64,000 nt of DNA from Deltaproteobacteria bacterium (GTDB lineage: Bacteria; Desulfobacterota; Binatia; UBA9968). Of this stretch, positions 31,030 through 51,448 are shown piece by piece. Under the pieces are notes generated by a model. It did not search any database. It was given only the letters and a program-made list of their open reading frames with translations, and had not been told where the DNA came from. Position 1 is the stretch's first letter; each line of letters opens with the position of its first letter. Both the position numbers and the translations under genes were made by a program. Where the stretch lies: the NCBI GenBank assembly GCA_016210115.1, contig JACQUW010000207.1, positions 1-64,000 on the forward strand, read 5' to 3'.

Positions 31030-32220
31030 GTGCACGCAAGCGAAAAAATCAAGCTGCTTGAGTTCGTCACCCTATTTCACATAGGGGGCACGGAGAGACA
31101 CGTGGTCAATCTCGTGAAGCGAATCGATGACGGAAAATTTGACCTTCAGGTCGCCTGTCTCTGCCGGTCCGGCGAATTTCTCCCCGAAATCGAATCGGTT
31201 CCGCTCACCGAGTTTTATATTGAGAGCCTGTACGGCAGGGCCGCTTTCGGCCAGCAGGTCAAGTTTGGCCGCCATCTTAAGCAGAACCGGATCCAAATCG
31301 TTCACACCTACGGCTTTTATCCCAACCTGTTTGCGATACCCGCCGCGTGGTTCTCTCGTGTGCCGGTGATTGTGGCGTCGATCAGAGACACCGGGGCTTA
31401 CCTTACGCCGGGAAAGAAACGCGCCCAAAAAATGGTTTGCCGGCTGGCCGATAGAATCGTAGTCAACGCGGAGGCGGTCAGGAACTGGCTGATCGAAGAA
31501 GGCTTCAATCCGAAAAAGATCACCGTGATCCACAACGGCATCGACGTTTCCAGATTCCAAAAAAAGCGCTCCGGAAGCAGGCTGCGACAGGATTTCGGGC
31601 TTTCCCCGCACTCGCCTATTATCGCGGTGATCTCCCGGCTGAATCCGCTGAAGGGAATCCATTATTTTCTCGACGCGGCCGCACAGATTTCACGGCGCTT
31701 TCCAGAGGCGCGGTTCCTGATTATTGGCGATAGTGACGAATACCGAAAAGAGTTGGAGGACTGTGCGGGGCGTCTCGGTATCCGGGAGAGAGTTATTTTT
31801 ACCGGTTTTAGACTCGACATCGCTGAGCTGCTTTCAGAGATCTCGATTTCGGTTCTGCCTTCACTCACCGAAGGTCTCTCCAACACTCTGCTGGAATCGA
31901 TGGCGGCGGGGGTGCCCGTCGTCGCGACGGAAGTCGGAGGCAATCCTGAACTGGTGCAGGATGGGATAACCGGCCTGCTCGTTCCACCCCGGGACCCCGG
32001 CGCTCTGGCCCGCGCCATTTCCCTGCTGCTTGAGAAACGGGAAATGGCCCTTCAATTCGGGCACGCGGGACGAGAGCGAGCCGCGAAGCTTTTTTCCCTC
32101 GAAAAAATGGTGGCGCACACAGAGCGCCTCTACCTCGAACTCCTGGAACGAGCGGAATGCACTCAGGTCGTGAGAGCAAAAAAAGAAGAAGGAGGTCTAA
32201 CCGCGCCATGGCATCGTTAG
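31030..32220 (+). CDS. Glycosyltransferase family 4
   Basis: 396 aa, GTG start; 'LLEFVTLFHIGGTERHVVNLVKRID', 'VIHNGIDVSRFQ', 'SLTEGLSNTLLESMAAGVPVVATEVGGNPELVQDGITGLLVPP'. Confidence 0.93.
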   Translation: MHASEKIKLLEFVTLFHIGGTERHVVNLVKRIDDGKFDLQVACLCRSGEFLPEIESVPLTEFYIESLYGRAAFGQQVKFGRHLKQNRIQIVHTYGFYPNLFAIPAAWFSRVPVIVASIRDTGAYLTPGKKRAQKMVCRLADRIVVNAEAVRNWLIEEGFNPKKITVIHNGIDVSRFQKKRSGSRLRQDFGLSPHSPIIAVISRLNPLKGIHYFLDAAAQISRRFPEARFLIIGDSDEYRKELEDCAGRLGIRERVIFTGFRLDIAELLSEISISVLPSLTEGLSNTLLESMAAGVPVVATEVGGNPELVQDGITGLLVPPRDPGALARAISLLLEKREMALQFGHAGRERAAKLFSLEKMVAHTERLYLELLERAECTQVVRAKKEEGGLTAPWHR

Positions 32221-33701
32221 ACCATGCCTTTTCAGAGTCTTGGCGAAAAACCGTTCGGGCCTTTCATGAAGGCGGGCTAGGCCACCTGATCGCGCGGGCG
32301 TTCCAAAAGCTGAGCGCGCCTATCGTGGAGTTCGGGAGCATCGTGTTTTTTGGGCGCAACCTCGATCAAGAACTGCCGAAATCGCCCTCCTCCGATGAAC
32401 TCACGCTGCGTCAAGCTTCACGAGCGGACATGAATCTATTGCTTCAGGATGACGATCGCCCGCACGCGGCGGAAAAGTTGCGCCGCCGCTTTGACCGTGG
32501 AGATTTTTGCTTCATCGCCTTGGACGCCGAGGGAAAGCTCGCTCACTCGCGTTGGGCGACCACGGGGTCGGCAGAGATCCCTGAATTGGGCATGGAGATC
32601 GTTCTCAATCGGGAAGAGGCTTATTTTTATGACGGCTACACGCGGCCCGATTTACGGGGCCGCGGCATCGACGGCTATATCCGCCTTTTTATCTTCAACA
32701 GCACGCGCGCGCTCGGGGCGAGGTGGATCTATTCCTATGTGCGGGGCGATAACCCCGTTGCCTTTAGAGCGGCCCAACGATGGCAGCAACGACTAGGGAG
32801 GGTCTGGTATATGCGGGTACGCGGTTTGAAGCCGATCGTGATCGGCTATTCACGACTGGATCTGAATCTCCGTTCACGAGCGGCGACAGGAGAGGATGAG
32901 CAGGAGAAATCCCGCCGGGTGCAGATCTGGCGCGAATGGTTTGAAAGCTGGCTTGAAAAGCCGATGACGCAACGCTCGACGGGTTTTTATGACATGCCTG
33001 AAGAATACTTCGTTGCGACCGCGAAATACATCTCGGAAACTCTGCAGTTGAATCCGCTCTCCGACGCCGTTCTCGACGTCGGCTGCGATAGCGCTATGAT
33101 CAGCCGTCTCGTTGCCCCCCGCTCGCGCCGTTTTGTTGGCGTCGATTTTATTCCCGGGCTGCTCGCGCAAATACCCAAAAACGCGATCCGGGGCGCCGCA
33201 GGGCGGCCGGCGTCGCTCGTGGCCGCCGACGGCCGCCACTTGCCCTTCCGGGAAGGTGTGTTTGACAAGGCATACTGTTCTGCGGTCCTGCAGACACTCC
33301 CGAGTCACGAGGACGGCTTTAAGATCATCGAGGCTTTGACCCGCGCCTGCCGGCCAGGCGGAAAAATTCTGGTGAGCAGCGTGCCGGACACCGCCAAACG
33401 TCTGGTTGGATATCTGGAAATGTGGAGGCGGGGGGGAATGAAAGATAGATTGATGCTTTTGGGCTCCCTGTTGACGCCACGACCACTCAAAGACCTCTTA
33501 TCTCGGCTGCTCGGCCTAAAGCCCCGATACCGTCTGGTTTGCCTCGAATACGACCTTAAGAAGATCAAGAGCATGTTGGATGCGCGGGGCTTCCACTGCC
33601 AAATCCTACACTTTCCCGAGCAGTACCCGAGTCGCGATTTCCGCAAGACCCGATCCAACCTTTTGATCCAAAAACCAATGGAAAACAAAGCGGGAGTGTA
33701 G
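32208..33701 (+). CDS. Two-domain protein: N-terminal GNAT-like acyltransferase + C-terminal SAM methyltransferase
   Basis: ORF 32157..33701; GNAT-like 'EAYFYDGYTRPDLRGRGIDGYIRLFIFNSTRALGARWIYSYVRGDNPVAFRAAQRW', then 'DAVLDVGCDSAMISRLVAPRSRRFVGVDFIPGLLAQ...LPFREGVFDKAYCSAVLQTLPSHEDG'. Confidence 0.8.
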   Translation: MASLDHAFSESWRKTVRAFHEGGLGHLIARAFQKLSAPIVEFGSIVFFGRNLDQELPKSPSSDELTLRQASRADMNLLLQDDDRPHAAEKLRRRFDRGDFCFIALDAEGKLAHSRWATTGSAEIPELGMEIVLNREEAYFYDGYTRPDLRGRGIDGYIRLFIFNSTRALGARWIYSYVRGDNPVAFRAAQRWQQRLGRVWYMRVRGLKPIVIGYSRLDLNLRSRAATGEDEQEKSRRVQIWREWFESWLEKPMTQRSTGFYDMPEEYFVATAKYISETLQLNPLSDAVLDVGCDSAMISRLVAPRSRRFVGVDFIPGLLAQIPKNAIRGAAGRPASLVAADGRHLPFREGVFDKAYCSAVLQTLPSHEDGFKIIEALTRACRPGGKILVSSVPDTAKRLVGYLEMWRRGGMKDRLMLLGSLLTPRPLKDLLSRLLGLKPRYRLVCLEYDLKKIKSMLDARGFHCQILHFPEQYPSRDFRKTRSNLLIQKPMENKAGV

Positions 33702-33703
33702 CC

Positions 33704-34798
33704 ATGAACCGAGCGAATCTAAGAACAGTGCCGTCCTCGTCGTTTCCCGATTGCTCAGCGCCGCAAGATGTCCCATCCCGCAGCCTGTCTTTGCAGCCGA
33801 TCGAGATTTTCTCTACCTGCCCGGCTTCGGACGGCATTCCCCGGGAGGATTATGCCCGGAAGCTCGTCGATGTCGCGCGCTGGAGTGAGGAGGCGGGTTG
33901 CCATGGAATCCTGATCTACTCCGACAACAGTCTGCTGGATCCGTGGCTGATCGCGCATCTCATTATTCAGAATACATCGAGTTTATGCCCATTGGTGGCG
34001 GTTCAGCCCGTCTATATGCATCCTTATACCGTCGCAAAGATGATCGCCTCTCTGGGGCATCTTTACCGGCGGCGTCTCTATCTCAATATGGTCGCGGGCG
34101 GTTTTAAAAACGACCTGATCGCGCTCAACGATCCGACCCCCCACGACGAACGGTACGACCGGTTGAAGGAGTACACGATCATCATCGAGGAGCTTCTGAA
34201 GAACCCATCCGGCGTCACTTATCGAGGGAGATTTTACCAGGTGGAACATCTCAAATTGACGCCTCTCTTGCCCCTCAATCTGTTTCCCGGGATTTTCGTA
34301 TCGGGTTCTTCCGAAGCGGGCGTGGAATCCGCGAAGGCGATTCGGGCCACTGCGATCAAGTATCCGAAGCCGCCAAACCAAGAGGGCGAAATATTGGATT
34401 CGGGTATCGATTACGGTATCCGGGTTGGGATTATCGCTCGAGCGACCGAGGAGGAGGCATGGAAAGTCGCCTGCACGCGCTTTCCACCGGACCGAAAAGG
34501 CCAAATCACGCACCAGCTCGCCATGAAAACGTCGGATTCGGTCTGGCATAGACAACTTTCCGAGTTTGGAATCCAGGCGAACAACCCCTACTGGCTGCTG
34601 CCCTTTCAGAACTACAAGACTTTCTGTCCTTATCTGGTGGGAAGCTATGAACGAGTTGCGGAGGAGTTGGGCCGCTATATCGGGCTGGGATATCGGACCT
34701 TCATTCTGGACATTCCACCGGACAAGGAAGAGCTGGAACATACGCAGATCGGGTTTCGGAAGGCGGTGATAAAGGCATATGGCAGAACTGCTGCATAA
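33704..34798 (+). CDS. LLM class flavin-dependent (alkanesulfonate-monooxygenase-like) monooxygenase
   Basis: 364 aa; 'DYARKLVDVARWSEEAGCHGILIYSDNSLLDPWLIAHLIIQNTSSLCPLVAVQPVYMHPYTVAKMIASLGHLYRRRLYLNMVAGGF'. Confidence 0.85.
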   Translation: MNRANLRTVPSSSFPDCSAPQDVPSRSLSLQPIEIFSTCPASDGIPREDYARKLVDVARWSEEAGCHGILIYSDNSLLDPWLIAHLIIQNTSSLCPLVAVQPVYMHPYTVAKMIASLGHLYRRRLYLNMVAGGFKNDLIALNDPTPHDERYDRLKEYTIIIEELLKNPSGVTYRGRFYQVEHLKLTPLLPLNLFPGIFVSGSSEAGVESAKAIRATAIKYPKPPNQEGEILDSGIDYGIRVGIIARATEEEAWKVACTRFPPDRKGQITHQLAMKTSDSVWHRQLSEFGIQANNPYWLLPFQNYKTFCPYLVGSYERVAEELGRYIGLGYRTFILDIPPDKEELEHTQIGFRKAVIKAYGRTAA

Positions 34799-36386
34799 TT
34801 GGATCACAGAACGAGCCGAACGGCGCCCGGACTCTGTCGCCCTGGTTCTTGACCAGAACAAGATCACCTATGGCGAGCTTGACGCGCTCTCGAACCGGCT
34901 CGCGGGGATGCTCAAGGAGACCGGCTGTGAGCGCGGCGACCGGGTGGCTTTTTTGATACCCAAGTCGCCGGCGGCGATCGTTGCGATCTTGGGGATTTTA
35001 AAGGCGGATTGCATTTATGTGCCGCTCGATCCCTCGGGTCCGGCATCGCGCCTGAAAAAAATTCTTCAATCCTGCGAAACCGGCCGGATCCTGGCCGCCG
35101 GACCGGTCGTTTCTTTGCTCGACGAGCTGCTGAGCGATAACGAGCTTCGCTCCTCGATCGAGATTGGCTGGATGGATCACGAAGCGGTTCAGGGAGAAAA
35201 CTTTAAACCCACTTTTTCCCTGGCTGATCTCAGCGCGTTTTCGCGCCGGCCGCTCGCCTACAGCAACACCCGTTTCGACCCAGCCCACATCCTTTTCACT
35301 TCGGGCTCAACCGGCGCGCCCAAAGGGGTTGTGATCAACCACTCGAGCGTGATCGAGTTCGTCGAGTGGGCGACCCGCTACTTTCAAATGAGCTGCTCTG
35401 ACCGGATTTCCGGCCAGACGCCGCTCCACTTCGATCTCTCTACCTTCGATATCTTCGGTACCTTCGCGGCCGGCGCGGAGCTCCACCTGGTTCCGCAGGA
35501 GCTGAATTTGCTGCCCAACAAACTGGCCGGCTTTATCCGCCAATCGCAACTCACTCAGTGGTTTTCGGTGCCTTCGATTCTGAACTACATGGCAAAATTC
35601 GACGTGGTCGGGTTTGGCGACTTTCCGTCATTGAAGCGCCTCCTGTGGTGCGGGGAGGTTTTCCCTACCCCATCGCTGATCTACTGGATGAAGCGGCTGC
35701 CGCATGTTCGATTCACGAACCTGTACGGCCCCACGGAGACCACGATTGCCAGCAGCTACTACACGGTGCCTGCATGCCCGGAGGATGAAAGAGCGGCCAT
35801 CCCGATCGGGACTGCGTGCCACGGAGAAGAGCTGCTCGTCCTGGATGAGAAACTCCGGCCGGTGCCTCGGGGTCAGGTGGGAGATCTCTACATTCGGGGA
35901 GTCGGTTTAAGCCCCGGATATTGGAAAGATCCGGAGAAAACCCGGGCCGCCTTTCTGCCCAACCCGCGCAGCTTGGACCCGGCGGAGCGGATCTATAAGA
36001 CCGGCGACCTGGCGAAGATTGAAAGCGACGGCTTGGTCTATTTTGTGGGGCGGGCCGATTCGCAAATCAAGAGCCGCGGCTACCGCATCGAGCTCGGCGA
36101 GATCGAGGCGGCCCTCGGTTCCATGAACCTTCTGCAGGAATGCGCGGTGGTCGCTCTTGCGATCAATGGCTTTGAAGGAAACAAAATTTGTTGCGGCTAT
36201 GTTCCCTTGCCGGGAAGCGAAGTCGCTCCGACAACTCTGCGAAAGGAGCTGAGCAAGTTATTGCCGGCGTACATGCTGCCCTCCGGCTGGCTGGCGCTCG
36301 AACGGCTGCCCCGAAACGGCAACGGGAAGGTCGACCGAAGCAAGCTTGGGGAGGAGTTCAAAAACAATGGAACTGCTTCCCCTTGA
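34779..36386 (+). CDS. Stand-alone amino-acid adenylation (NRPS A-domain-like) enzyme
   Basis: 535 aa; 'LDALSNRLAGMLKETGCERGDRVAFLIPKSPAAIVAILGILKADCIYVPLDPSGPASRL', 'HILFTSGSTGAPKGVVINHSSV', 'NLYGPTETTIASSYY', 'IYKTGDLAKIESDGLVYFVGRADSQIKSRGYRIELGEIEAAL', 'LPRNGNGKVDR'. Confidence 0.95.
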   Translation: MAELLHNWITERAERRPDSVALVLDQNKITYGELDALSNRLAGMLKETGCERGDRVAFLIPKSPAAIVAILGILKADCIYVPLDPSGPASRLKKILQSCETGRILAAGPVVSLLDELLSDNELRSSIEIGWMDHEAVQGENFKPTFSLADLSAFSRRPLAYSNTRFDPAHILFTSGSTGAPKGVVINHSSVIEFVEWATRYFQMSCSDRISGQTPLHFDLSTFDIFGTFAAGAELHLVPQELNLLPNKLAGFIRQSQLTQWFSVPSILNYMAKFDVVGFGDFPSLKRLLWCGEVFPTPSLIYWMKRLPHVRFTNLYGPTETTIASSYYTVPACPEDERAAIPIGTACHGEELLVLDEKLRPVPRGQVGDLYIRGVGLSPGYWKDPEKTRAAFLPNPRSLDPAERIYKTGDLAKIESDGLVYFVGRADSQIKSRGYRIELGEIEAALGSMNLLQECAVVALAINGFEGNKICCGYVPLPGSEVAPTTLRKELSKLLPAYMLPSGWLALERLPRNGNGKVDRSKLGEEFKNNGTASP

Positions 36387-36428
36387 ATCCGCCGAATCTT
36401 TTGGCTTCGGAACATAAGGAAATCTCCC

Positions 36429-36683
36429 ATGACAGAACTGAGATCGCTGCATGAGCGAATCGCCAGGATTTTTTCCGAGCAGATCCGTGTCGAGGTCCCT
36501 TCCGTCGACACCGACCTGTTCGAGACGAGTATTCTGGATTCGTTGGGGTTAGTCGACCTGGTCGTTTGGCTGGAGCAGGAATTTGATGTTCGGGTTACCG
36601 TCGAGGACCTGGAGATCGACAATTTCCGGTCCATCGCCAGCATCGCTGAATTCACGGCTAAGAAGATAAAATTGGCTGCGTAG
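36429..36683 (+). CDS. Acyl/peptidyl carrier protein
   Basis: 84 aa; 'DTDLFETSILDSLGLVDLVVWLEQEFDVRV', with the conserved DS-L phosphopantetheine site. Confidence 0.9.
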   Translation: MTELRSLHERIARIFSEQIRVEVPSVDTDLFETSILDSLGLVDLVVWLEQEFDVRVTVEDLEIDNFRSIASIAEFTAKKIKLAA

Positions 36684-36701
36684 GTTTTATGCTGTTTGTC
36701 A

Positions 36702-36720
36702 TCGGCCCCTGAAGGGCCGA
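36702..36720. promoter_or_regulatory. Perfect 7-bp-stem hairpin between ACP and acyltransferase genes
   Basis: TCGGCCC-CTGAA-GGGCCGA read directly. Confidence 0.4.
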
Positions 36721-36734
36721 AGCCAGGGTGGCCC

Positions 36735-37832
36735 ATGGACAGAATTCGAGCCTTTGTCGCGGACGACATTCCACAGGTCGCAGACCTCCACAGGCGGGTC
36801 TTTAAGACCGACGATCGCCTTTCGAAAACTCTGGAAGAGTCTTACCGCTCGTACTTTGAAAACATTTTCTTAAGTCATCCCTGGTATGACGGCGCTTTGC
36901 CTTCTCTCGTTTACGAGGACGGCGGCGGGAAAATCCTTGGTTTTATGGGCGTGACGCCGCGCCGAATGTCGCTCCGGGGTCAATCCATTCAGGCTGTTAT
37001 CAGCTCTCAGTTCATCGTGGAGCCCGGCGGCCGGTCCGCAGTGGCCGCTGTGAAACTGGTAAAAACTCTTATGTCCGGACCGCAGGACCTGTGCATCGCC
37101 GATGAGGCGAACGACGCCTCTCGCAAGCTCTGGGAAGCGGCCGGGGGCTCTACGGCGCTCCTCTACAGTATGTACTGGCTGCGTCCTCTAAGGTTAAGTG
37201 AATGGTTAGTGCGCTCATGGGGCAGGGCAGGCTTGCCGGCTATCATGGCTTCCGGATCGGCTCCTTTTTGCCGGCTCCTGGACGCCGTGATAGCCGATAG
37301 CCCACGCATTCCTTTTCGGCTGGCCTCTCCTTCGTTATCGGGGGAGGAGCTGGAGCCGGAGGCGCTTCTTCACTGCATGACCGAATTTTCCGCCTGCTGG
37401 TCTCTTAGGCCGCAGTACGACAAGGGTTGGGTCAAGTGGCTTCTGGAACTTTTAGCTGAAAAAAACGGCCACGGGAGTTGCCAAAAAGTCGCGCTTCGAA
37501 GCCCTGCGGGAGAAATCGTCGGCTGGTACGTTGCGCTGCTGAATCGTGGCGGCATCGGGGAAGTCTTACAGATCGGCGCCAGAAATGGCTGGATGGGCCA
37601 CGTCCTCGATCACCTATTCTACCACGCCTGGCAAAAGGGCGCCGTGGCGCTTTCCGGACGCCTTGAACCCAAACTACTCGATCATTTCCACGACCGGCAA
37701 TGCCTGTTTCAACATCGTCGCGGTTACTGGACGCTGATTCACTCCAGCAAGCCGGAATTGCTTGAAGCCTTCTATCGCGGAGACGCTTTTGTATCTCGGC
37801 TGGACGGCGAGTGGAGCCTGCGCTTCAAATAA
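36735..37832 (+). CDS. GNAT-family N-acyltransferase-like protein
   Basis: ORF 36696..37832, likely start MDRIRAFVADDIPQVADLHRRVFKTD; 'ILGFMGVTPRRMSLRGQSIQAVISSQFIVEPGGRSAVAAVKLVKTLMSGPQDLCIADEANDASRKLWEAAGG'. Confidence 0.7.
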   Translation: MDRIRAFVADDIPQVADLHRRVFKTDDRLSKTLEESYRSYFENIFLSHPWYDGALPSLVYEDGGGKILGFMGVTPRRMSLRGQSIQAVISSQFIVEPGGRSAVAAVKLVKTLMSGPQDLCIADEANDASRKLWEAAGGSTALLYSMYWLRPLRLSEWLVRSWGRAGLPAIMASGSAPFCRLLDAVIADSPRIPFRLASPSLSGEELEPEALLHCMTEFSACWSLRPQYDKGWVKWLLELLAEKNGHGSCQKVALRSPAGEIVGWYVALLNRGGIGEVLQIGARNGWMGHVLDHLFYHAWQKGAVALSGRLEPKLLDHFHDRQCLFQHRRGYWTLIHSSKPELLEAFYRGDAFVSRLDGEWSLRFK

Positions 37833-37891
37833 GCTAAGGCCGGTCAACCTGCCGGGAAAGACGGGCTGCTTCAGAAAAGAGGATCGCGCAA

Positions 37892-39463
37892 ATGGATCAA
37901 ACGGCGATAGCTGAAGTTTACGTGGCCAAAAAAAACAATCGCCTCTATACCGTCAGCGATCTTCTGCTGCAGCAGGCGCAAAGTGGACACGCAAAAAAAA
38001 CCGCGATTGTAGACGGGCAGCGGCGCATCGACTATTCCGACCTGCTTCGTCTCGCCCTCGGATACGCTGCCGTTCTTAAGAAAGCGGGCCTGCAAAAAGG
38101 CGATCGGGTGGGGATCTTTCTTCGTCGTTCGATTGAAGCGGTCGTCGCCCTGTTTGCGACCCATTCTGCCGGCGGTGTCGCCGTCATTATTGCCGACGTG
38201 CTTCACTCCAAACAGGTGGAGCACATCTTAGCCCACAGCGAGGCTTTGCTCATGCTCACCGACTCGAGACAACTGTTGCAAGTCCCCGCGCTCGGCTTTG
38301 ATCGACAAAGGATCATCAATATGGACGAGATCGTGCCCGGGCGAGCGGCATTTTCACCTGTGAGCGCGATCGGGAATGATCTGGCCCTCCTCATTTACAC
38401 TTCGGGCTCGACCGGCTTGCCGAAAGGCGTGATGGTGAGCCACAGCAATCTCCTTTCCGGAGCCATGATCGTTTCTGATTACTTGCGGGTTACGGAGGAG
38501 GATACCCTGATCAGTCTTCTCCCCTTCAGCTTCGATTACGGCCTGAACCAGCTCCTGATGACGCTCTTTACCGGCGGAACGCTGGTAATCCAGCGCTCGC
38601 TCTTTCCGGCGGAGGTTTGCCGGACGGCGCAAAAGGATAAGATTACCGGTATTGCCGGGGTGCCGACTCTCTGGCTGCAACTGACCGGGGCCTATTCTCC
38701 TTTCCTGAACACCTCGTTTCCGCACCTGAGATACATCACCAACTCGGGCGGTTCTCTGCCCGAAAGCGTGATCCGGCAGATCAGAAAGTCTCATCCGCAG
38801 GTGGAGATATTTCTAATGTATGGCCTCACGGAGGCATTCCGCTCCACGTTTCTTCCCCCCGATCAAGTCGACATCAGGCCCTCTTCAATCGGCAAAGCGA
38901 TTCCGAACGTGGAGATCCTGGTGCTTCACGAGGGGGGAAGGCTGTGCCGGCCGGGTGAGGTCGGCGAACTCATCCATCGCGGCGCAACGGTGACGCTGGG
39001 CTACTGGCGAGATCCGGAAGCGACCGCGAGGGTTTTCCGGCCGCATCCACTCACTGACTACGGCAATGGCCGGGCGGAAATCGTCGCGTTTTCGGGCGAC
39101 CTCGTGAAGACGGATTCTGACGGCTATCTCTATTTCGTCGGCCGCAGGGACCAATTGATCAAAACGAGAGGCTATCGGCTAAGTCCGGAGGAAATCGAGC
39201 GCTGGGCGTTTGGCTCAGGACTGCTGGCGAATGCGGTCGCATTTGCTGTTCCAAAAGACCCCGTCGACAGCCATATCGTACTGGCCGTTACACCGAAAGA
39301 GACAGATGACTTCGGCCGGCAAGCTTTTGATCGTTACTGCAGGAATGAAATGCCCGAATATATGCGGCCCCATGATGTCTGGGTTTTGAACGAGTTCCCC
39401 CTCACATCGGCCGGCAAGCCGGACCGCGTGAGGATCAAGCAAACATATGTTGAAACTCGCTGA
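37892..39463 (+). CDS. AMP-dependent acyl-CoA/ACP ligase (exosortase-A-associated type)
   Basis: 523 aa; 'LALLIYTSGSTGLPKGVMVSHSNL', 'FLMYGLTEAFRSTFLPP', 'SGDLVKTDSDGYLYFVGRRDQLIKTRGYRLSPEEIE'. Confidence 0.93.
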   Translation: MDQTAIAEVYVAKKNNRLYTVSDLLLQQAQSGHAKKTAIVDGQRRIDYSDLLRLALGYAAVLKKAGLQKGDRVGIFLRRSIEAVVALFATHSAGGVAVIIADVLHSKQVEHILAHSEALLMLTDSRQLLQVPALGFDRQRIINMDEIVPGRAAFSPVSAIGNDLALLIYTSGSTGLPKGVMVSHSNLLSGAMIVSDYLRVTEEDTLISLLPFSFDYGLNQLLMTLFTGGTLVIQRSLFPAEVCRTAQKDKITGIAGVPTLWLQLTGAYSPFLNTSFPHLRYITNSGGSLPESVIRQIRKSHPQVEIFLMYGLTEAFRSTFLPPDQVDIRPSSIGKAIPNVEILVLHEGGRLCRPGEVGELIHRGATVTLGYWRDPEATARVFRPHPLTDYGNGRAEIVAFSGDLVKTDSDGYLYFVGRRDQLIKTRGYRLSPEEIERWAFGSGLLANAVAFAVPKDPVDSHIVLAVTPKETDDFGRQAFDRYCRNEMPEYMRPHDVWVLNEFPLTSAGKPDRVRIKQTYVETR

Positions 39464-40652
39464 CGATTTGAATCGACGCCTCGAGCCGCAGGAACGCTTC
39501 GAACAGATCCTTTCCTCGGCTTTCCGGCGTTTCGGCAAAGCCGTCGTGGATCTCTCCTACGCTAACTTTTACGAGGGGCCGGGAAAGCCGGTTCTCGAGG
39601 CGCTGGAAAGGGCGATCGCCGATGACAGAATCTTAGCTCTCCAGTACACGCCCTACGGCGGAAGAACCGTTACGCGGCGGCTGATTGCAACCAGCCTGAC
39701 TGAAGAATACGGGCTGCCCTTTAACTACCAGCACGTGATCCTGACGCCGGGCGCGACTGCGGCGCTGAACATGGTTTTTCGAACTCTTTTCGGACCGGGG
39801 GAGGAGGTGCTTCTGCCCACCCCCTGCTGGCATGACTATGCTGTGTACCTGAGCAATCTCGGGATTTCTATCCGCACGGTTCCCCTGGCGCAGAACAAAC
39901 ACCTGGACCTGGAAGCGATTGCGCTGGCCACGGGTCCCAACACCAGAGGAATCGTGTTGAGTCAACCCTGCTGCCCCACGGGGGTCGTCTACTCCAAGAA
40001 TGAACTGGCAGAGCTGGCAAAGCTCCTGACAGAGGCAGAGCAGAGATTCCAGACCGCGATTTATCTGGTCAGCGACGAAGTGCACCGCCATATCGTCTGG
40101 AGCGGCGCGGAGGTTTACAGCCCGCTGCTGAGCTACCCGCGGAGTCTGACTATCTATTCGTTCGGCAAAGCTCTCTTTATCCAGGGACAAAGGATCGGTT
40201 ACGTGGCCGTTTCTCCTCAAATGCCCGAGGACAGGCGGCTCGCGAAACAACTCGAGCAATGCGAGCGAATAATGGGATATGGGGCTCCGACCAGTCTCAT
40301 GCAGCGCGCGATTTGTGACCTGATTGAATATCGCCCGCCGCTCGATCTGCTTGCGCGCCGGCAACGGGAGGCCAGACGGAAGCTCAAAGATTCTGGTTTC
40401 GAGCTTTGCGATGGCGAGGCCACCTGTTTCGTGTATGTCAAAAGCCCGATGGCTGATGACTTCGCGTTCGTCGAGCGGCTTGCGGCTCGCGGGGTCCTTG
40501 TCCTTCCTTCAAGCGTTTTCCTCGAGGCGGGCCATTTACGAGTCTCCCTGACGGCCCGAGGGGAAGCGATCACCCGGGGCGTCGAAGCCATGGGAGAAGT
40601 GCTGCAGGATGCTCGAACCAGTCCCTCGAATCGAGAAGCTTGCGAACGATAA
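39447..40652 (+). CDS. PLP-dependent class I/II aminotransferase
   Basis: 401 aa; 'HVILTPGATAALNMVFRTLFGPGEEVLLPTPCWHDYAVYLSNLG', 'YLVSDEVHRHIVWSGAE', 'TIYSFGKALFIQGQRIGYVAV'. Confidence 0.9.
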   Translation: MLKLADDLNRRLEPQERFEQILSSAFRRFGKAVVDLSYANFYEGPGKPVLEALERAIADDRILALQYTPYGGRTVTRRLIATSLTEEYGLPFNYQHVILTPGATAALNMVFRTLFGPGEEVLLPTPCWHDYAVYLSNLGISIRTVPLAQNKHLDLEAIALATGPNTRGIVLSQPCCPTGVVYSKNELAELAKLLTEAEQRFQTAIYLVSDEVHRHIVWSGAEVYSPLLSYPRSLTIYSFGKALFIQGQRIGYVAVSPQMPEDRRLAKQLEQCERIMGYGAPTSLMQRAICDLIEYRPPLDLLARRQREARRKLKDSGFELCDGEATCFVYVKSPMADDFAFVERLAARGVLVLPSSVFLEAGHLRVSLTARGEAITRGVEAMGEVLQDARTSPSNREACER

Positions 40653-40692
40653 TCACGCCGCAGACCAAATTCAAAGGAGGGAAAGACAGGCC

Positions 40693-42480
40693 ATGGCTGT
40701 TTCGCAGCGTGAGATAGCTGAGATATTGGAAAGATTCATACGGTCTCGCTTCCGAGTGCCCGTGAAGGATCCCCTCTTTTCACAGACTGTGGACCTGTTC
40801 GACTCGGGATACGTCGACTCCGTTGGCGTGGTCGAGCTGATCTCTTTTTTGGAAAGTACTTTCAAAATCAAAATCCCGGAAGAGTCTCTTTTTAGTACCG
40901 AGTTCACCACAATCAGCGGGATCAGCGGAATTGTTTTGGGCCGTGCGGCTGCGATCGCCTCTGCGTGTGGCGGCGCCTCGACCTTAAGGCAGCCTGACCC
41001 ACGAACCTCGCGCTGCCTCCGATTTATCATGCGAAACGCGACTCCCAATGCGAAGAACTTCTCTTCGCCGGAGAGGATGAACAAGCCACACCCGATTTAT
41101 CGAGACGCGGCGCCGCCGGTTATTATTCTCAATCTGAGCTATTCCGGTCTCGGCATCGCCAGGGATCTGGCAGGGAGAGGAGTGCGGCTGATCGGGCTGT
41201 CGTCGGACCGCAAGATCTACGGCAATTTTTCCCGCTTCTGCGAGGTCCGTTTTGCTCCCAGCTCGCAAGACGAGCCGGAGCGACTGGCTGAATTCTTGCT
41301 GCAGTCGGCCGGCGAGTTAAACGGCGCCGTGATTTTTCCGACGAGCGATTTCGACGTTCTCTTCCTCGATCACTTTCGCGTGAGTCTGGAGCCGCACTAC
41401 AGACTCAGCGTCCCGCCGCGGCGCTGCCTGTTCCAGGTGATGGATAAATATGCCCTCTTCTGCGAAGCGATTCGGGCAGGGGTGCCGGTTCCGCGCACGG
41501 TTGTGGTTCACTCTCACCGGGAGCTCGCCCAAATTCCTGAGGCGATCGGCTTTCCGTGCGTTGTTAAACCGGTTTGGTCCTTTCATTGGCGAAACGGAAA
41601 CTTTCCTGAGACCTTAAAAGATACCAAAGCCCTTCGGCTCGATAGTCTAAAAGAACTCGAAACGCGATACGCGGAGGTCGCCGCGGCCTCTGCGCGGGTA
41701 CTGGTCCAGGAATGGATTCCCGGTGACGCTGATCGGATTGTGGTTCTCGGGGGATACTTTAATGAGAGTTCGGAGCCCCTTTCCTACTTCACCGCCCGGA
41801 AAATTGTACAGTCGCCGGACGATTTCGGCACGGGTTGCGTTGTGGAAAGCGTTGAGTTGCCTGAGATCCTGACGCCCACCGTGAAACTCCTGCGGGATCT
41901 AGGCTATCAGGGAATGGCAGAAGTCGAATACCGGCAGGACCCAAGGACCGGAGAGTATAAGCTCATCGAGATCAATACTCGCCATTGGGACTGGCACCGG
42001 CTGGGCAGCGCAAGCGGCGTCAATGTCAGTTGGACCGCATACTGTCATTTGACCGGTAAGCCGGTAAACCCGACCCGCGTGCCGATTTTGCAGGCCACCT
42101 GGATCGCGGAAGACGCGTTGTTTTACTATCTCTTGAAAGCCATTTTCGCTCGGCGGCTGAACGCGCGCAAGTTGTGGCGCCGAGTTAAAGGCCCCAGGAT
42201 TTACGGAATCTTCGACCGGAAGGATCCTCTTCCTTTTTTTCGTTACTGGGTTCAAACCGTCATCCCCAGAGTCGCCAAAAAACTCTTCGACGAGCTCCGC
42301 AGAAAACCCGGCGGCGCGGCGCGGCGAAAGCGCTCACGGCCGAAGAGTTCTCATGATTTCCGAGGAGAAAGCCGGCGGACCGGGGCATTGGTTCTGCCGC
42401 TGGCGCAAAGCTTCATCTATGAGGTGGTTTTATATGACTTGCTTGACGGAGTTAATTTAATTTCACCGTTCCTTGGCTGA
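40693..42480 (+). CDS. Carrier protein (ACP) - ATP-grasp fusion
   Basis: ACP: 'VDLFDSGYVDSVGVVELISFLESTFKIKIPEESL'. ATP-grasp: 'RCLFQVMDKYALFCEAIRAGVPVPRTVVVHSHRELAQIPEAIGFPCVVKPVWS...LVQEWIPGDADRIVVLGGYF...YKLIEINTRHWDWHRLG'. One uninterrupted frame. Confidence 0.85.
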   Translation: MAVSQREIAEILERFIRSRFRVPVKDPLFSQTVDLFDSGYVDSVGVVELISFLESTFKIKIPEESLFSTEFTTISGISGIVLGRAAAIASACGGASTLRQPDPRTSRCLRFIMRNATPNAKNFSSPERMNKPHPIYRDAAPPVIILNLSYSGLGIARDLAGRGVRLIGLSSDRKIYGNFSRFCEVRFAPSSQDEPERLAEFLLQSAGELNGAVIFPTSDFDVLFLDHFRVSLEPHYRLSVPPRRCLFQVMDKYALFCEAIRAGVPVPRTVVVHSHRELAQIPEAIGFPCVVKPVWSFHWRNGNFPETLKDTKALRLDSLKELETRYAEVAAASARVLVQEWIPGDADRIVVLGGYFNESSEPLSYFTARKIVQSPDDFGTGCVVESVELPEILTPTVKLLRDLGYQGMAEVEYRQDPRTGEYKLIEINTRHWDWHRLGSASGVNVSWTAYCHLTGKPVNPTRVPILQATWIAEDALFYYLLKAIFARRLNARKLWRRVKGPRIYGIFDRKDPLPFFRYWVQTVIPRVAKKLFDELRRKPGGAARRKRSRPKSSHDFRGESRRTGALVLPLAQSFIYEVVLYDLLDGVNLISPFLG

Positions 42481-42492
42481 GCACAATTCCAG

Positions 42493-43656
42493 ATGCTGAA
42501 AATCGATCTCATACAGGATCATGCCGGCTTCGAGCGACTTAAGCCGGAGTGGGACGCGTTGCTCGCGGCCAGCGAATCGGATTGCTTTTTCTTGACCTGG
42601 GAGTGGCTTTTTACGTGGTGGAAGCATTTATCGGGCCGAAGAATGCTGGTCCTGTTGACCGTGCGCGACGCGGGGAAGCTCATTGCGATTGCGCCGCTGG
42701 CGGCGCGCTCCCGCAGCTTCGTTCGCCTGGCGCCTTTTGGTTCAGTTGAATTCCTGGGAACGGGAAGCGTCGGCTCCGACTACCTCGATGTCATCGCCCG
42801 GCGCGGAAGCGAAATGCAGGCATGGGAGGCCCTGGCGGATTACCTCCTTGGACGCAAAATCGTCATGAAGCTTTCTCAACTCAAGGAGGGGAGCCTGGCA
42901 GCGAGGCTCGCCGCCGCTCTGCAACGCGAGGGGAACTGGAAAATTGTTCAGTCGAAGATTGAGATCTGCCCGTTCATCAATTTGACCGGACATACCTGGG
43001 AAACCTATCTCGCGACGCTCGGCCCGGCACACAGACAGAATTATCAAAGAAGGCTCCGGAACCTGACCAAGGGATTCGACATGCGCTTGGAGCCGGTGTG
43101 CGTGGAAGCCGAACGCGGAGGCGTCCTGCGAAAGGTTTTTGAGCTTCATCATAGGAGATGGAACGAGCGGGGAGGGTCGAGCGCGTTTCACAGCGCTGGA
43201 CTGCTCTCTTTTCATGATGAGCTGAGTTGTCTGGCATTGGCGCGCGGCTGGCTGAGGCTTTTTGTTCTCTGGCTGAACGAAAAGCCGGTCGCCTGTATTT
43301 ACGGCTTCCGCTATCGTGACGTCTTCTACTTTTATCAGTCCGGTTTTGATCCCGCTTACAGCAAACAGAGCGTCGGCATGGTTCTGATGGGACTGGTGAT
43401 CAGGAGCGCCATCGAGGAGGGGGCTCTGGAATACGATCTCCTTCATGGAAGCGAGCCGTACAAGTTTCTCTGGTCGCGCGAGACCCGCGATTTGGCTCGG
43501 CTTGAGATCTATCCACCGAACGTCTACGGAGTGCTCCACAAGGAGACAGTGGCCTGGGTCCGGAGCGTTAAAAGAATGCTGCGGCAGGTGCTCCCCAAAA
43601 CGATGATCGACCGGATAGCGCGGGCGAGAGCGTTCGGGGTCGGGGAGGGAACTTAA
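42493..43656 (+). CDS. FemAB/BioF2-like GNAT acetyltransferase
   Basis: 387 aa; 'FFLTWEWLFTWWKHLSGRRMLVLLTVRDAGKLIAIAPL', 'RQNYQRRLRNLTKGFDMRLEPV', 'KFLWSRETRDLARLEIY'. Confidence 0.85.
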   Translation: MLKIDLIQDHAGFERLKPEWDALLAASESDCFFLTWEWLFTWWKHLSGRRMLVLLTVRDAGKLIAIAPLAARSRSFVRLAPFGSVEFLGTGSVGSDYLDVIARRGSEMQAWEALADYLLGRKIVMKLSQLKEGSLAARLAAALQREGNWKIVQSKIEICPFINLTGHTWETYLATLGPAHRQNYQRRLRNLTKGFDMRLEPVCVEAERGGVLRKVFELHHRRWNERGGSSAFHSAGLLSFHDELSCLALARGWLRLFVLWLNEKPVACIYGFRYRDVFYFYQSGFDPAYSKQSVGMVLMGLVIRSAIEEGALEYDLLHGSEPYKFLWSRETRDLARLEIYPPNVYGVLHKETVAWVRSVKRMLRQVLPKTMIDRIARARAFGVGEGT

Positions 43657-44804: not shown

Positions 44805-46214
44805 ATGGATCCCATCCCGCTTATTTTGCTTGAGTTCAATGAGCTGTCGCCGGTTCTAATGCAGCGGTTCATTCGCCAGGGCGAGTTGCCGAACTTCAAG
44901 ATCATGTATGATGAATCGCAGGTTTTCCTGACCGACGCGGAAGAAAAACCGCCCTATCTTGAGCCGTGGATTCAGTGGGTAAGCGTCCACTCCGGGATGC
45001 GTTATAAAGAGCATGGGGTGTTCCATCTGGGCGACGGCTTTGCGCTGAAGGAAAGACGCATTTGGGATCTTATGTCCGAGCGCGGCCTTCGCGTCTGGAT
45101 TTGCGGAAGCATGAACGTCCGCTATGACCTGCCGTTAAACGGCTACGTTCTGCCCGATCCGTGGACGCAGAATCCTCCACCTCATCCCACGGGACTGATG
45201 CCCTATTTCAGATTCGTCCAGCGAAACGTGCAAGAGCACACCCGCGACCGGGCGCCGCTCGGGGCACTGGATTATATCGAGTTTCTCGGCTTCATGGCAC
45301 GCCATGGGCTCTCGCCGAGCACGATTTTCGCTATTCTCCGGCAGATCGCGGCGGAACGGGGGCGCGCAAATCGATGGAAGCGGGCTTTTATTATGGACAG
45401 ATTACAGTTTGACCTTTTTCGTTCCGTTTATAGAAGATTGAAACCTCATTTTTCGACTTTCTTTCTAAACAGCACGGCGCACATGCAGCATATGTACTGG
45501 CGCAATCTCGAGCCGGAGCTTTTCAAGCGACAACCCGCGGCCGCGGAACAGGAGGAGTTCCGGCACGCCGTCCTCTTGGGTTATCGGGAAATGGACCGGC
45601 TGATCGGCCGCTTCCGGCGGCTCTTTGGCGCCGGGTCGATCATCATTTTTTGCACCGCCCTCAGCCAACAGCCCTGTCTTATCTATGAGGAAGGTCTGGG
45701 GGGAAAGGTGGTCTACCGGCCGCGGGATTTTGAAGCCCTGCTCGCCTTCGCGGGAATCAACGGGCGGCATAGAGTCGAGCCGGTGATGGCGGGGGAATTC
45801 CACGTCTATTTCGAAAACGAAAGAGAGGCGACCGAGGCCCGGCAGCGGCTGCTCGATCTGCGGGTAGGCGAACAGCGCGTCCAGCACGTCGAGCAGAAGG
45901 GGACCGATGTTTTCGGCGGCTGTATTGTGTTTGAGGAATTGCCTGCCGATGCGACGCTCCGGCTTGCCGGCACGGACCGGGCAGCTCCGTTTTTCGAGAT
46001 CTTTTATCGGATCGAAGGAAGGAAGAGCGGAATCCACCATCCGGACGGGATGCTTTGGATCCGCCTTCCGGACAACAGCCATCGTGTCCATGAGGGCAAG
46101 GTTTCCTTGACTTCGATCGCGCCGACCATCCTGCGGATGTTTGGCGTTCCCCGCCCCTCGACAATGCGCGGCGACCCACTGGAATTCGGCGGGCGGCCCG
46201 CCGCTGCAGCTTGA
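44805..46214 (+). CDS. Alkaline-phosphatase-superfamily (phosphodiesterase/sulfatase-like) protein
   Basis: 469 aa; 'IPLILLEFNELSPVLMQRFIRQGELPNFKIMYDE', 'WIQWVSVHSGMRYKEHGVFHLGDGF', 'STFFLNSTAHMQHMYWRN', 'KVSLTSIAPTILRMFGV'. Confidence 0.7.
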   Translation: MDPIPLILLEFNELSPVLMQRFIRQGELPNFKIMYDESQVFLTDAEEKPPYLEPWIQWVSVHSGMRYKEHGVFHLGDGFALKERRIWDLMSERGLRVWICGSMNVRYDLPLNGYVLPDPWTQNPPPHPTGLMPYFRFVQRNVQEHTRDRAPLGALDYIEFLGFMARHGLSPSTIFAILRQIAAERGRANRWKRAFIMDRLQFDLFRSVYRRLKPHFSTFFLNSTAHMQHMYWRNLEPELFKRQPAAAEQEEFRHAVLLGYREMDRLIGRFRRLFGAGSIIIFCTALSQQPCLIYEEGLGGKVVYRPRDFEALLAFAGINGRHRVEPVMAGEFHVYFENEREATEARQRLLDLRVGEQRVQHVEQKGTDVFGGCIVFEELPADATLRLAGTDRAAPFFEIFYRIEGRKSGIHHPDGMLWIRLPDNSHRVHEGKVSLTSIAPTILRMFGVPRPSTMRGDPLEFGGRPAAAA

Positions 46215-46216
46215 AA

Positions 46217-49723: not shown

Positions 49724-51448
49724 ATGCGCGATGAGTTCAAGACCAGCCGTCTCAGAGTGATCGTGTTCACGTCCGGACCCCTGAGTGCCGTCAACCGCGT
49801 TTTCTTTGAGCGCCTTGCCGGGGATCCGCTGGTCGAGTTATGCGCCATCATCGTGGACGCCTATGAGAGAGCGAAAAAACCGCTGCCGTCTCGCGTCCTC
49901 AAGGGATTGCGCGAAGAGGGCTGGGGGTGGCTGGCGTTTAAGCTCAGGTCAGCCGTGGCGGCGTTGGTCGGGAAGATGGTTCGGCGTTTTTTTGAATGGC
50001 TCCATCCGCCGGTGGGCGCAGACGAATCTTATGAGACGCTGCAGCAGAAAACGGGGATCCCCGTCTATTGCGTTCCCGACATTCACGACGAACAAAGCCT
50101 GGCTCTGATCAAATCCTTGCGGCCCAAACTCGGGGTCATCGTGGGAAGCCGAATCCTTCGCGATGCGGTCATTACGATTCCCGATCACGGCACGCTCAAC
50201 ATCCACAAGAGAAAAGTTCCGGACTACCGTGGAGGAGGGCCGGTGGGTTATTGGGAGGTGCTCGCGGGGGAGGCCTCTATCGGCGTGACAATTCACTACG
50301 CGCTCTCCAAAGTGGATTCAGGGGCTGTGCTGGCGGAATCGAGCATTCCCATCGAAGAGTGTGACACCCTGGAAAGTCTCCAGATCAAAGCGGACATTCT
50401 TGGCGCGAATCTCTATCACGAGACAATCAGAAAATGCGCTCTGGGGTCTTGGGAAGGAGTGCCGCAGGATACGTCGCGCGGCAAGACCTACCGGGCGCCA
50501 AGCGAATTTCGCGTTTGGCAACTTCAGAAACGCCTGAGCCAGAACGCGGCGAAGCGAATGCCGGGTATGGAAGGCTGCCTCTCCTGGCCCGCGAGAATGC
50601 GCATTATGCTGCAGTACGGCATTTTGCTCCCCTGGCTCATGCGCCTCAGGAAGAGGCTCAAGGAAGACCGGCGGGCCCCGATCTGCATCTTTTTCTACCA
50701 TCTCGTCACCAACCGGCCGGTCAATCACCTTTGCCTTTCCCTGGAAGACTTTGTTCGGCAGATGGAATTTCTCCGCCGCTATTACAAAGTGCTTTCGCTG
50801 CAGGACGCGGTCAGACGACTCGAATCCGGGGAGACCGACGAAATTGCCGTCGCGTTGACATTCGACGACGGCTACAAAGACAACACCTGGGCGATCGAGT
50901 ACTTACGTTACTTTGGAGTGCCGGCGGCGTTTTTCGTCTCCATCGGTCACATCCTCGACGGCAGTGGTTTTGAGCATGACACCTCCAAGGGATTTAAAGA
51001 AGCGCTTCCGATGGGTGAGGCGGATGTCGGGAGGCTCGCTGCAGAAGGTTTTGTCATAGGATCGCATGGCGTGTATCACGAGGATTTTGGCCAACTCGAT
51101 CCGGCAAAGGCAGACGAGGTGCTTCGGGAAAGCCGTGAATTGATCAATCGAGTGACCGGACGGCTGCCCGAGCACTTCTCGTTTCCGAAGGGGCAAAGGG
51201 GGAGCAATATTACCGGGGAAGGCTTTGCGCTCGCGAACCGGCACTACCGGTACGTTTACTCGGCTTATGGTGGATACAACTTTCCCTCACGAGAGCGCCG
51301 GCACTTCCTCAGGATAGCCAACCCCAGCGACGTGCTTTCACTGGCCATGATCATGGACGGCTACACAGGCTTCCGCCGGTGTCTGTCCGGAGATGCTGTG
51401 GGCCTGAAAACCGAATCGCTTCCGCCGTATTGCGAGAATGAAATTTAG
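49724..51448 (+). CDS. Formyltransferase - polysaccharide deacetylase fusion
   Basis: 574 aa; N-terminal 'IPDHGTLNIHKRKVPDYRGGGPVGYWEVLAGEASIGVTIHYALSKVDSGAVLAE' (Formyl_trans_N); C-terminal 'ICIFFYHLV...AVALTFDDGYKDNTWAIEYLRYFGVPAAFFVSIGHI...IGSHGVYHEDF' (NodB). Confidence 0.88.
   Translation: MRDEFKTSRLRVIVFTSGPLSAVNRVFFERLAGDPLVELCAIIVDAYERAKKPLPSRVLKGLREEGWGWLAFKLRSAVAALVGKMVRRFFEWLHPPVGADESYETLQQKTGIPVYCVPDIHDEQSLALIKSLRPKLGVIVGSRILRDAVITIPDHGTLNIHKRKVPDYRGGGPVGYWEVLAGEASIGVTIHYALSKVDSGAVLAESSIPIEECDTLESLQIKADILGANLYHETIRKCALGSWEGVPQDTSRGKTYRAPSEFRVWQLQKRLSQNAAKRMPGMEGCLSWPARMRIMLQYGILLPWLMRLRKRLKEDRRAPICIFFYHLVTNRPVNHLCLSLEDFVRQMEFLRRYYKVLSLQDAVRRLESGETDEIAVALTFDDGYKDNTWAIEYLRYFGVPAAFFVSIGHILDGSGFEHDTSKGFKEALPMGEADVGRLAAEGFVIGSHGVYHEDFGQLDPAKADEVLRESRELINRVTGRLPEHFSFPKGQRGSNITGEGFALANRHYRYVYSAYGGYNFPSRERRHFLRIANPSDVLSLAMIMDGYTGFRRCLSGDAVGLKTESLPPYCENEI

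Follow-up and report, generated by a model that had tools for sequence, protein, structure and literature searches.

A recurrent monooxygenase-adenylation-carrier cassette in an EPS gene run of a Binatia bacterium and its proposed role in amino-acid decoration of surface polysaccharides

Aminoacylation of glycans from a carrier protein, as performed by the Dlt and Alm systems, alters bacterial surface charge and resistance to antimicrobial peptides. In the lipid A-modifying AlmE-AlmF-AlmG system of Vibrio cholerae, a stand-alone glycine-type adenylation enzyme (A-domain), a free carrier and an acyltransferase serve a surface glycan, and the cassette described here is built likewise; it differs in adding a luciferase-like monooxygenase (LLM) oxidase and often a capping enzyme, in lying in EPS loci, and in its transferase, which is predicted to be an N-myristoyltransferase (NMT)-like double GNAT instead of an AlmG. 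DltABCD, responsible for the D-alanylation of teichoic acid, has similar pocket residues in DltA and a similar free carrier in DltC, but the Thr of DltA at position 322 is Leu here, and an LLM and a GNAT are found instead of DltB and DltD. In the butirosin pathway (BtrI, BtrJ, BtrK, BtrO, and BtrH), a carrier-bound amino acid is N-capped, alpha-hydroxylated by an LLM-type enzyme and moved to an amino sugar; the present cassette uses an A-domain where butirosin loads by ATP-grasp, and another acyltransferase. A monooxygenase is likewise paired with glycine activation in the MOx glycine A-domains of myxothiazol, melithiazol, and some corallorazine-type NRPSs, although MOx is a domain inside the A-domain and releases an amide, whereas the proteins considered here are separate and accompanied by no condensation domain. 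XrtA-type EPS loci are also related, since the core genes around the cassette match XrtA-type families and a neighboring AMP-forming ligase (LigPEP) is related to TIGR03098, but the scores lie below the cut-offs, the ligase is paired with an aminotransferase, and the stretch has no exosortase. No published description of this gene combination was found in the open-access literature, outside which most subscription papers lie. The cassette is viewed as a variant of AlmEFG/Dlt-type glycan aminoacylation, in which the predicted glycine specificity, a swappable enzyme slot, the spread over 11 phyla, and the putative NMT-like transferase are new.

The window, i.e., the whole analysed stretch of 64,000 nucleotides (GCA_016210115.1, contig JACQUW010000207.1, positions 1 to 64,000), contains one long EPS gene run on the + strand. 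Family scans covered genes 20218-63311, two proteins of which had no family match. The contamination of the source genome is 8.9%, and most of the loci compared below are on MAG contigs, in which binning errors are possible. A preliminary description had listed seven genes at 33704-42480 as one carrier-based sub-cluster. ORF positions and Pfam matches confirmed these genes: all seven are open, on the + strand and tightly packed or overlapping, and their domains were recovered in the Pfam/NCBIfam scan. The limits given for the sub-cluster did not hold, since the run continues upstream (2 bp between the GNAT-methyltransferase gene and the LLM gene) and downstream (12 bp between the ATP-grasp gene and GNAT2), so 33704 and 42480 are not natural borders. 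The relevant features are as follows.

32157..33701, +, GNAT-like N-terminus (assigned by eye) with a methyltransferase domain (PF08241 on residues 306-405)
33704..34798, +, LLM, luciferase-like (FMN-type) monooxygenase, core of module A (PF00296, E 1.3e-31)
34779..36386, +, stand-alone A-domain, module A (PF00501/PF13193; TIGR01733 386.8 bits, above cut-off)
36429..36683, +, ACP1, free carrier protein, module A (PF00550, E 1.5e-11)
36735..37832 (ORF listed from 36696), +, GNAT1, tandem GNAT, predicted transferase (weak PF13527; AF2 model)
37892..39463, +, LigPEP, AMP-forming ligase, module B (PF00501/PF13193; TIGR03098 545.7 bits)
39447..40652, +, AT, class I/II aminotransferase, module B (PF00155, E 1.4e-39)
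40693..40962, +, ACP2, carrier domain, module B, at the N-terminus of the last ORF (PF00550, E 2.8e-5)
41029..42480, +, ATP-grasp amide ligase (PF02786), in frame with ACP2, fusion doubtful
42493..43656, +, GNAT2, next gene of the EPS run (PF13480)
49724..51448, +, formyltransferase-polysaccharide deacetylase fusion (PF00551 and PF01522; FORM HMM E 1.1e-13)

The LLM and A-domain genes overlap by 20 bp, and the ligase and aminotransferase genes by 17 bp. As an ORF, ACP2 reaches 44 bp back into the aminotransferase gene, but the start at 40693 falls after the aminotransferase stop; judged from the starts of homologs, 40693 for ACP2 and 36735 for GNAT1 are the most likely start positions. The phosphopantetheine motif D-S-[LV] is kept in both carriers (ILDSLG and YVDSVG). 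The GNAT-methyltransferase upstream of the LLM is possibly a local tailoring or capping enzyme.

The seven genes were originally read as a single pathway, but this reading has to be given up. They fall into two modules, A (LLM, A-domain, ACP1, and GNAT1) and B (LigPEP, AT, ACP2, and ATP-grasp), because the ligase-AT-ACP2 genes are missing from the corresponding locus of one related genome (G016), lie on another contig in a second (G019), and are absent from nearly all of 80 LLM loci. These loci were obtained from one genome per species in 84,980 GTDB species with the LLM alignment alone as the query, so that the neighboring genes are an independent test of linkage; genes in them were called by ORF and BLAST/HMM. 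The scan gave 126 relatives, and the top 80 of these, with 55-69% identity over their best segment, indicate that the cassette is scattered across at least 11 named bacterial phyla. Among these best 80, an A-domain is present in the same locus in 76, an ACP near the LLM in 70, and GNAT1 near it in 33, and co-conservation across genomes, on which the proposed functional unit depended, was thus found for the four genes of module A. Two of the four loci lacking an A-domain end at the LLM (L050 and L057), and the other two truly have none nearby (L048 and L049). As 76 of 80 loci in other genomes hold an A-domain, the association of the two enzymes is far from chance, and the distances of LLMs and class I A-domains are correlated (r = 0.80; none of 2000 permutations was as high). 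Where high-GC loci seemed to contain long fused LLM or A-domain ORFs, this was attributed to over-extension at the start codon and not to real fusions.

Among relatives, the presence of the cassette is sporadic (5 of 117, own genome counted). Three further genomes from the family of the source genome also have it in EPS surroundings: in G019 (L041), the LLM, A-domain, ACP1, and GNAT1 follow the window order and are flanked by the same glycosyltransferase and by GNAT2; G016 (L043) has the same order plus a carbamoyltransferase ahead of GNAT2; in G011 (L039) the glycosyltransferase, LLM, and A-domain are visible before the contig ends. The order GT4a-LLM-A-ACP1-GNAT1 is common to G016 and G019, and GNAT2 comes after the cassette in these and in other genomes. 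In strict phylum-wide searches, the A-domain and aminotransferase queries recovered the own genome only, a soft negative because no more than 3-4 candidates were scored per genome.

The suggested specificity prediction for the A-domain returned a glycine-type code. In GrsA numbering, the residues are D219, L220, F223, F262, L289, C291, L315, I323, A324, and K517 (DLFFLCLIAK); the columns were checked against PltF, for which they give the known DLLYLALVCK. Of 49 class I A-domains, 38 have exactly this code, and the 20 class II partners, although only ~34% identical to the window A-domain, all have DL[HSF]F[LF]C[LIV]IAK. Two equally distant NRPS A-domains in L088, a built-in negative control, read DAWFLGNVVK and DSALIAEVWK. 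Codes from PDB alignments, one of which used a window fragment carrying three substitutions elsewhere than in the code columns, were DLHLFCLIA for AlmE (Gly), DCFFLALIT for IdnL7 (small L-amino acids), DLMTLCTVA for DltA (D-Ala), DLLYLALVC for PltF (Pro), and DIANLCIIY for LgrA module 2 (Gly). The window code differs from AlmE at three of nine comparable positions, and class II codes with H239 at two of nine. The code resembles AlmE more than DltA; against the DltA equivalog TIGR01734 the enzyme scores 281.2 bits (cut-off 559.85). It was reported that L248 and C316 restrict the AlmE pocket to glycine and that a Leu-to-Thr change enlarges the pocket of DltA (PMC11253843). Both AlmE residues are kept in the window enzyme (Leu 236 and Cys 301), as is Leu 322, which is Thr in DltA and probably corresponds to the reported Leu/Thr position; together with A331 they form a glycine-type pocket in this stand-alone protein. 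Because Leu 236, Cys 301, and Leu 322 are as in AlmE, glycine is the most likely substrate and D-Ala or L-Ala the second choice, and the code separates Gly from D-Ala only by such reasoning from alignments. The loading of an amino acid onto ACP1, as previously suggested for the stand-alone enzyme and the free carrier, appears well supported by the sequences, as does the conservation of both proteins.

Among solved structures, SsuD and MsuD are closest to the LLM. In SsuD, His228 is catalytic and Trp196 counts among the substrate residues; in all 81 family members the former position is Gly (Gly242 in the window) and the latter Tyr, and the LLM scores 108.6 bits against the SsuD model (cut-off 518.2). 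An SsuA-like domain is encoded in 23690-25894. Sulfonate chemistry, which this domain and the likeness to SsuD might suggest, was considered and rejected as unlikely, because these catalytic residues are replaced throughout the family. The LLM did not match TIGR04020, a natural-product LLM family, in NCBIfam at E<=1e-3, nor was a flavin reductase identified within the locus. In butirosin biosynthesis, the LLM-type BtrO works on an N-capped aminoacyl-ACP before transfer to the amino sugar. LLM reactions on free aminoacyl-ACPs are little known, which counts against oxidation on the carrier. LLMs acting on carrier-bound acyl groups are known from PKS systems (PMC8739492), and the monooxygenase paired with glycine A-domains in myxothiazol/melithiazol-type NRPSs hydroxylates the alpha carbon of glycine (PMC11342130). 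The earlier proposal that the LLM oxidises the carrier-bound amino acid draws support from the co-conservation of LLM, A-domain, ACP, and GNAT1, and the type of oxidation is inferred.

GNAT1 falls below the Pfam threshold for GNAT. Its AlphaFold2 model, a confident one (28 sequences; pLDDT 91.3, pTM 0.87), is matched best in Foldseek by N-myristoyltransferases and by the Enterococcus double-GNAT protein 2hv2, which we take to be Eis-like (E about 1e-13, TM about 0.5-0.58), and the modeled fold is thus that of an N-myristoyltransferase-like double GNAT. N-myristoyltransferase is an amide-forming acyl-thioester:amine transferase, and a fold of this kind would suit GNAT1 to acyl transfer from a thioester onto an amine. 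This model, together with the presence of GNAT1 near 33 of 80 LLMs, is consistent with the suggested transfer of the carrier-bound group by a GNAT. No AlmG-type or other acyltransferase family beyond GNAT was present among the scanned genes. In two loci (L101 and L121), an ATP-grasp gene follows ACP1 and GNAT1 was not seen.

Beside this core, 64 of the 80 loci hold at least one of three enzyme families: a RimJ-like GNAT (26 loci), a formyltransferase (15), or a NodU-like carbamoyltransferase (28). The RimJ-like GNAT, for which Pfam confirms acetyltransferase domains so that the suspicion of an artefact was dropped, usually lies between the A-domain and the ACP, where the formyltransferase is often found too; the carbamoyltransferase is often divergent or downstream, and was found in G016 and in the class II cassette of G075 (L045). 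Full flanks are available for 52 loci, of which 46 contain one or more of these slot enzymes and 41 exactly one; two occur in 5, against 12.4 expected if they were independent (none of 20,000 shuffles was as low, in a statistic that ignores shared ancestry), and the formyltransferase never occurs with another slot enzyme. On a quick LLM tree, the type of slot enzyme has switched at least 12 times. Since the families swap beside a fixed LLM-A-ACP core, the core is constant and the cap exchanged. No slot enzyme adjoins the window cassette; the sole match to a slot family is the formyltransferase-deacetylase fusion at 49724, and the GNAT-methyltransferase is unrelated to the RimJ-like family.

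Module B is rarer than module A and separable from it. LigPEP has a 78% identical homolog in G019 and 62-64% identical homologs in two Rokubacteria (L078 and L079), where modules A and B are again together, and AT adjoins LigPEP in all three. In G019, the ligase, aminotransferase, and ACP2 lie on another contig than the LLM, and ACP2 there is a separate 139-aa protein; free-standing ACP2 homologs are 65% (G019) and 44% (L078) identical. An AsnB-like protein apparently takes the place of the ATP-grasp in G019 and L078 (read by eye); two AsnB-type amidotransferases are encoded in the window. The ACP2-ATP-grasp fusion, which had been put forward as a distinctive feature, is doubtful. Although the frame is open, second-position GC is about 0.6-0.77 in the linker (about residues 118-156) versus about 0.3-0.5 in the domains, and in relatives ACP2 and the ATP-grasp are free proteins, the fusion not being seen elsewhere. 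Because the linker is poorly coding and relatives lack the fusion, it should not count as evidence; loss of a stop codon, or an indel introduced during assembly, may have produced the frame.

A link to exosortase-A loci had also been drawn from the ligase and the ACP. TIGR03007, 03013, 03015, 03018, 03027, 03087, 03097, and 03108 are indeed the best or near-best matches of the EPS core, all below their curated cut-offs. The link as drawn is not supported: LigPEP also scores under the TIGR03098 cut-off (592.35), exosortase (PF09721) is absent from the window and in this genome occurs only on contigs C331 and C151, and another ligase-ACP pair, of a kind common to G003 and G016, lies on contig C219. 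Window-type EPS genes lie within about 10 kb in 38 of 80 loci, a rough figure since EPS context was recognized only through such genes; about half of the homologous loci thus have no recognized polysaccharide gene nearby, and the acceptor need not be a sugar.

Genes, co-conservation, a nearly invariant pocket code, a double-GNAT fold, and slot swapping were computed, and the substrate, the reaction type, the order of steps, and the acceptor are inferred. On balance, with moderate confidence, we favor the reading that module A is a conserved, horizontally mobile cassette that loads an amino acid, glycine in the first place, oxidises it, in many lineages caps it, and transfers it to an acceptor that is likely an EPS amino sugar. 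The A-domain would adenylate a small amino acid (glycine is the likeliest) and attach it to the phosphopantetheine of ACP1; the LLM, with reduced flavin from a reductase encoded elsewhere, would oxidise glycyl-ACP1 by hydroxylation at the alpha carbon or nitrogen; a formyl-, acetyl- or carbamoyltransferase would cap the product in many lineages; and GNAT1 would pass the ACP1-bound group on to an amine and form an amide, the acceptor in this locus most likely being an amino sugar within the EPS repeat. Module B might supply a second carrier-bound or amide-linked group, here and in a few other loci. Against this reading stand L048 and L049, with an LLM but no adjacent A-domain, and, in the window, the missing flavin reductase of the locus and the missing slot enzyme beside the cassette. 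A bolder version, which we consider improbable, holds that the LLM N-hydroxylates glycyl-ACP and that the slot enzymes acylate the N-OH, as happens in ornithine hydroxamate siderophores, giving hadacidin-like N-acyl-N-hydroxyglycyl groups on polysaccharides in many phyla. It is proposed because a slot that alternates between formyl-, acetyl-, and carbamoyltransferases recalls the way hydroxamates are formed; if true, it would mean that a carrier pathway not described before makes metal-chelating exopolymers.

The cassette may instead make a diffusible small metabolite, such as a modified-glycine amide or a metallophore, with EPS loci being variable regions of gene acquisition. Bradyrhizobium has carbamoyltransferase, LLM, A-domain, ACP, and GNAT1-like genes beside an ABC transporter and no recognized EPS gene, loci of Methylocaldum and Methyloversatilis add P450, haem-oxygenase-like, and EgtD-like genes, and L088 lies within an NRPS cluster; this account is nevertheless rather unlikely in view of the conserved EPS order, from the same glycosyltransferase to GNAT2, in the window, G016, G019, L053, L080, L092, and others. 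Amidation would make glycine a nitrogen donor that is not retained: a MOx-like LLM would hydroxylate the alpha carbon of an N-acylated glycyl-ACP, and the product would break down to a primary amide and glyoxylyl-ACP. The glycine-type code and the common N-acylating slot enzymes would fit, as would the monooxygenase located in the glycine-recruiting A-domains of myxothiazol and melithiazol, with an amide outcome (PMC11342130); the absence of a condensation domain and of a TIGR04020 match, and the AsnB-type amidotransferases already available in the window, make it quite improbable. The genes could finally be unconnected neighbors in ordinary EPS tailoring, with a sulfonate-type LLM and an A-domain and ACP that merely D-alanylate the polymer as in Dlt. 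The SsuD/MsuD relationship and the shared DltA-type pocket residues (L236, C301, and A331) speak for it, but the LLM and A-domain are linked in 76 of 80 loci and diverge together, the SsuD His and Trp are replaced in all 81 members, and neither DltB (MBOAT) nor DltD is among the scanned genes 20218-63311, so that we give this explanation very little credence.

If the load-oxidise-transfer reading is right, it would add new, oxidising chemistry to Dlt/Alm-type glycan aminoacylation, with a modular logic in which the LLM-A-ACP core is fixed and cap and transferase are exchangeable. The cassette is also a test set of four small soluble proteins, with members in culturable Bradyrhizobium, Methylocaldum, and Thioalkalivibrio. 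It would represent a general, portable route to the oxidised amino-acid decoration of surface polysaccharides, mostly in soil and groundwater bacteria.

Gene content around the cassette (LLM, stand-alone A-domain, ACP1 and GNAT1) differs among lineages. In the Rokubacterium locus L078 (13369-15604), ACP1 and LigPEP, the AMP-forming ligase of module B, are separated by genes for a KAS III and a 3-hydroxyacyl-CoA dehydrogenase, which suggests that the cassette product is chain-extended there; a similar KAS III is also present in the second Rokubacteria locus, L079. The same-family genome G019 carries two tandem copies of the A-domain gene (L041 3803-7325), the first of which is broken across two frames. 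The window's own genome encodes a further stand-alone DltA-like A-domain adjoining a carrier, located outside the window on another contig (C280:5144-6971).

The multidomain proteins of the window's EPS locus include:

23690-25894, single protein with an sCache-like region, HAMP, an SsuA/NMT1-type substrate-binding domain and LysM
49724-51448, polysaccharide deacetylase fused to a formyltransferase

The former, whose domain combination is atypical within an EPS locus, is encoded between the XrtA-type ATPase and tyrosine kinase genes. The latter could both deacetylate and N-formylate one amino sugar. No Pfam or NCBIfam matches were obtained for the proteins encoded at 44805-46214 and 46211-47707, the second of which is kept in the EPS loci of G019, G016 (also of the same family), L053 and L080.

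The class II cassettes of Bradyrhizobium (L112, L114 and others) adjoin a gene of the isocitrate/isopropylmalate dehydrogenase family as well as a peptide-type ABC transporter, and the carbamoyltransferase in these loci is divergent from the cassette. In Methylocaldum (L103 3602-20424), the cassette occurs together with carbamoyltransferase, P450, haem-oxygenase-like, EgtD-like methyltransferase and MacB/FtsX-type genes; this gene set, which the Methyloversatilis locus L095 resembles, looks like a natural-product cluster.
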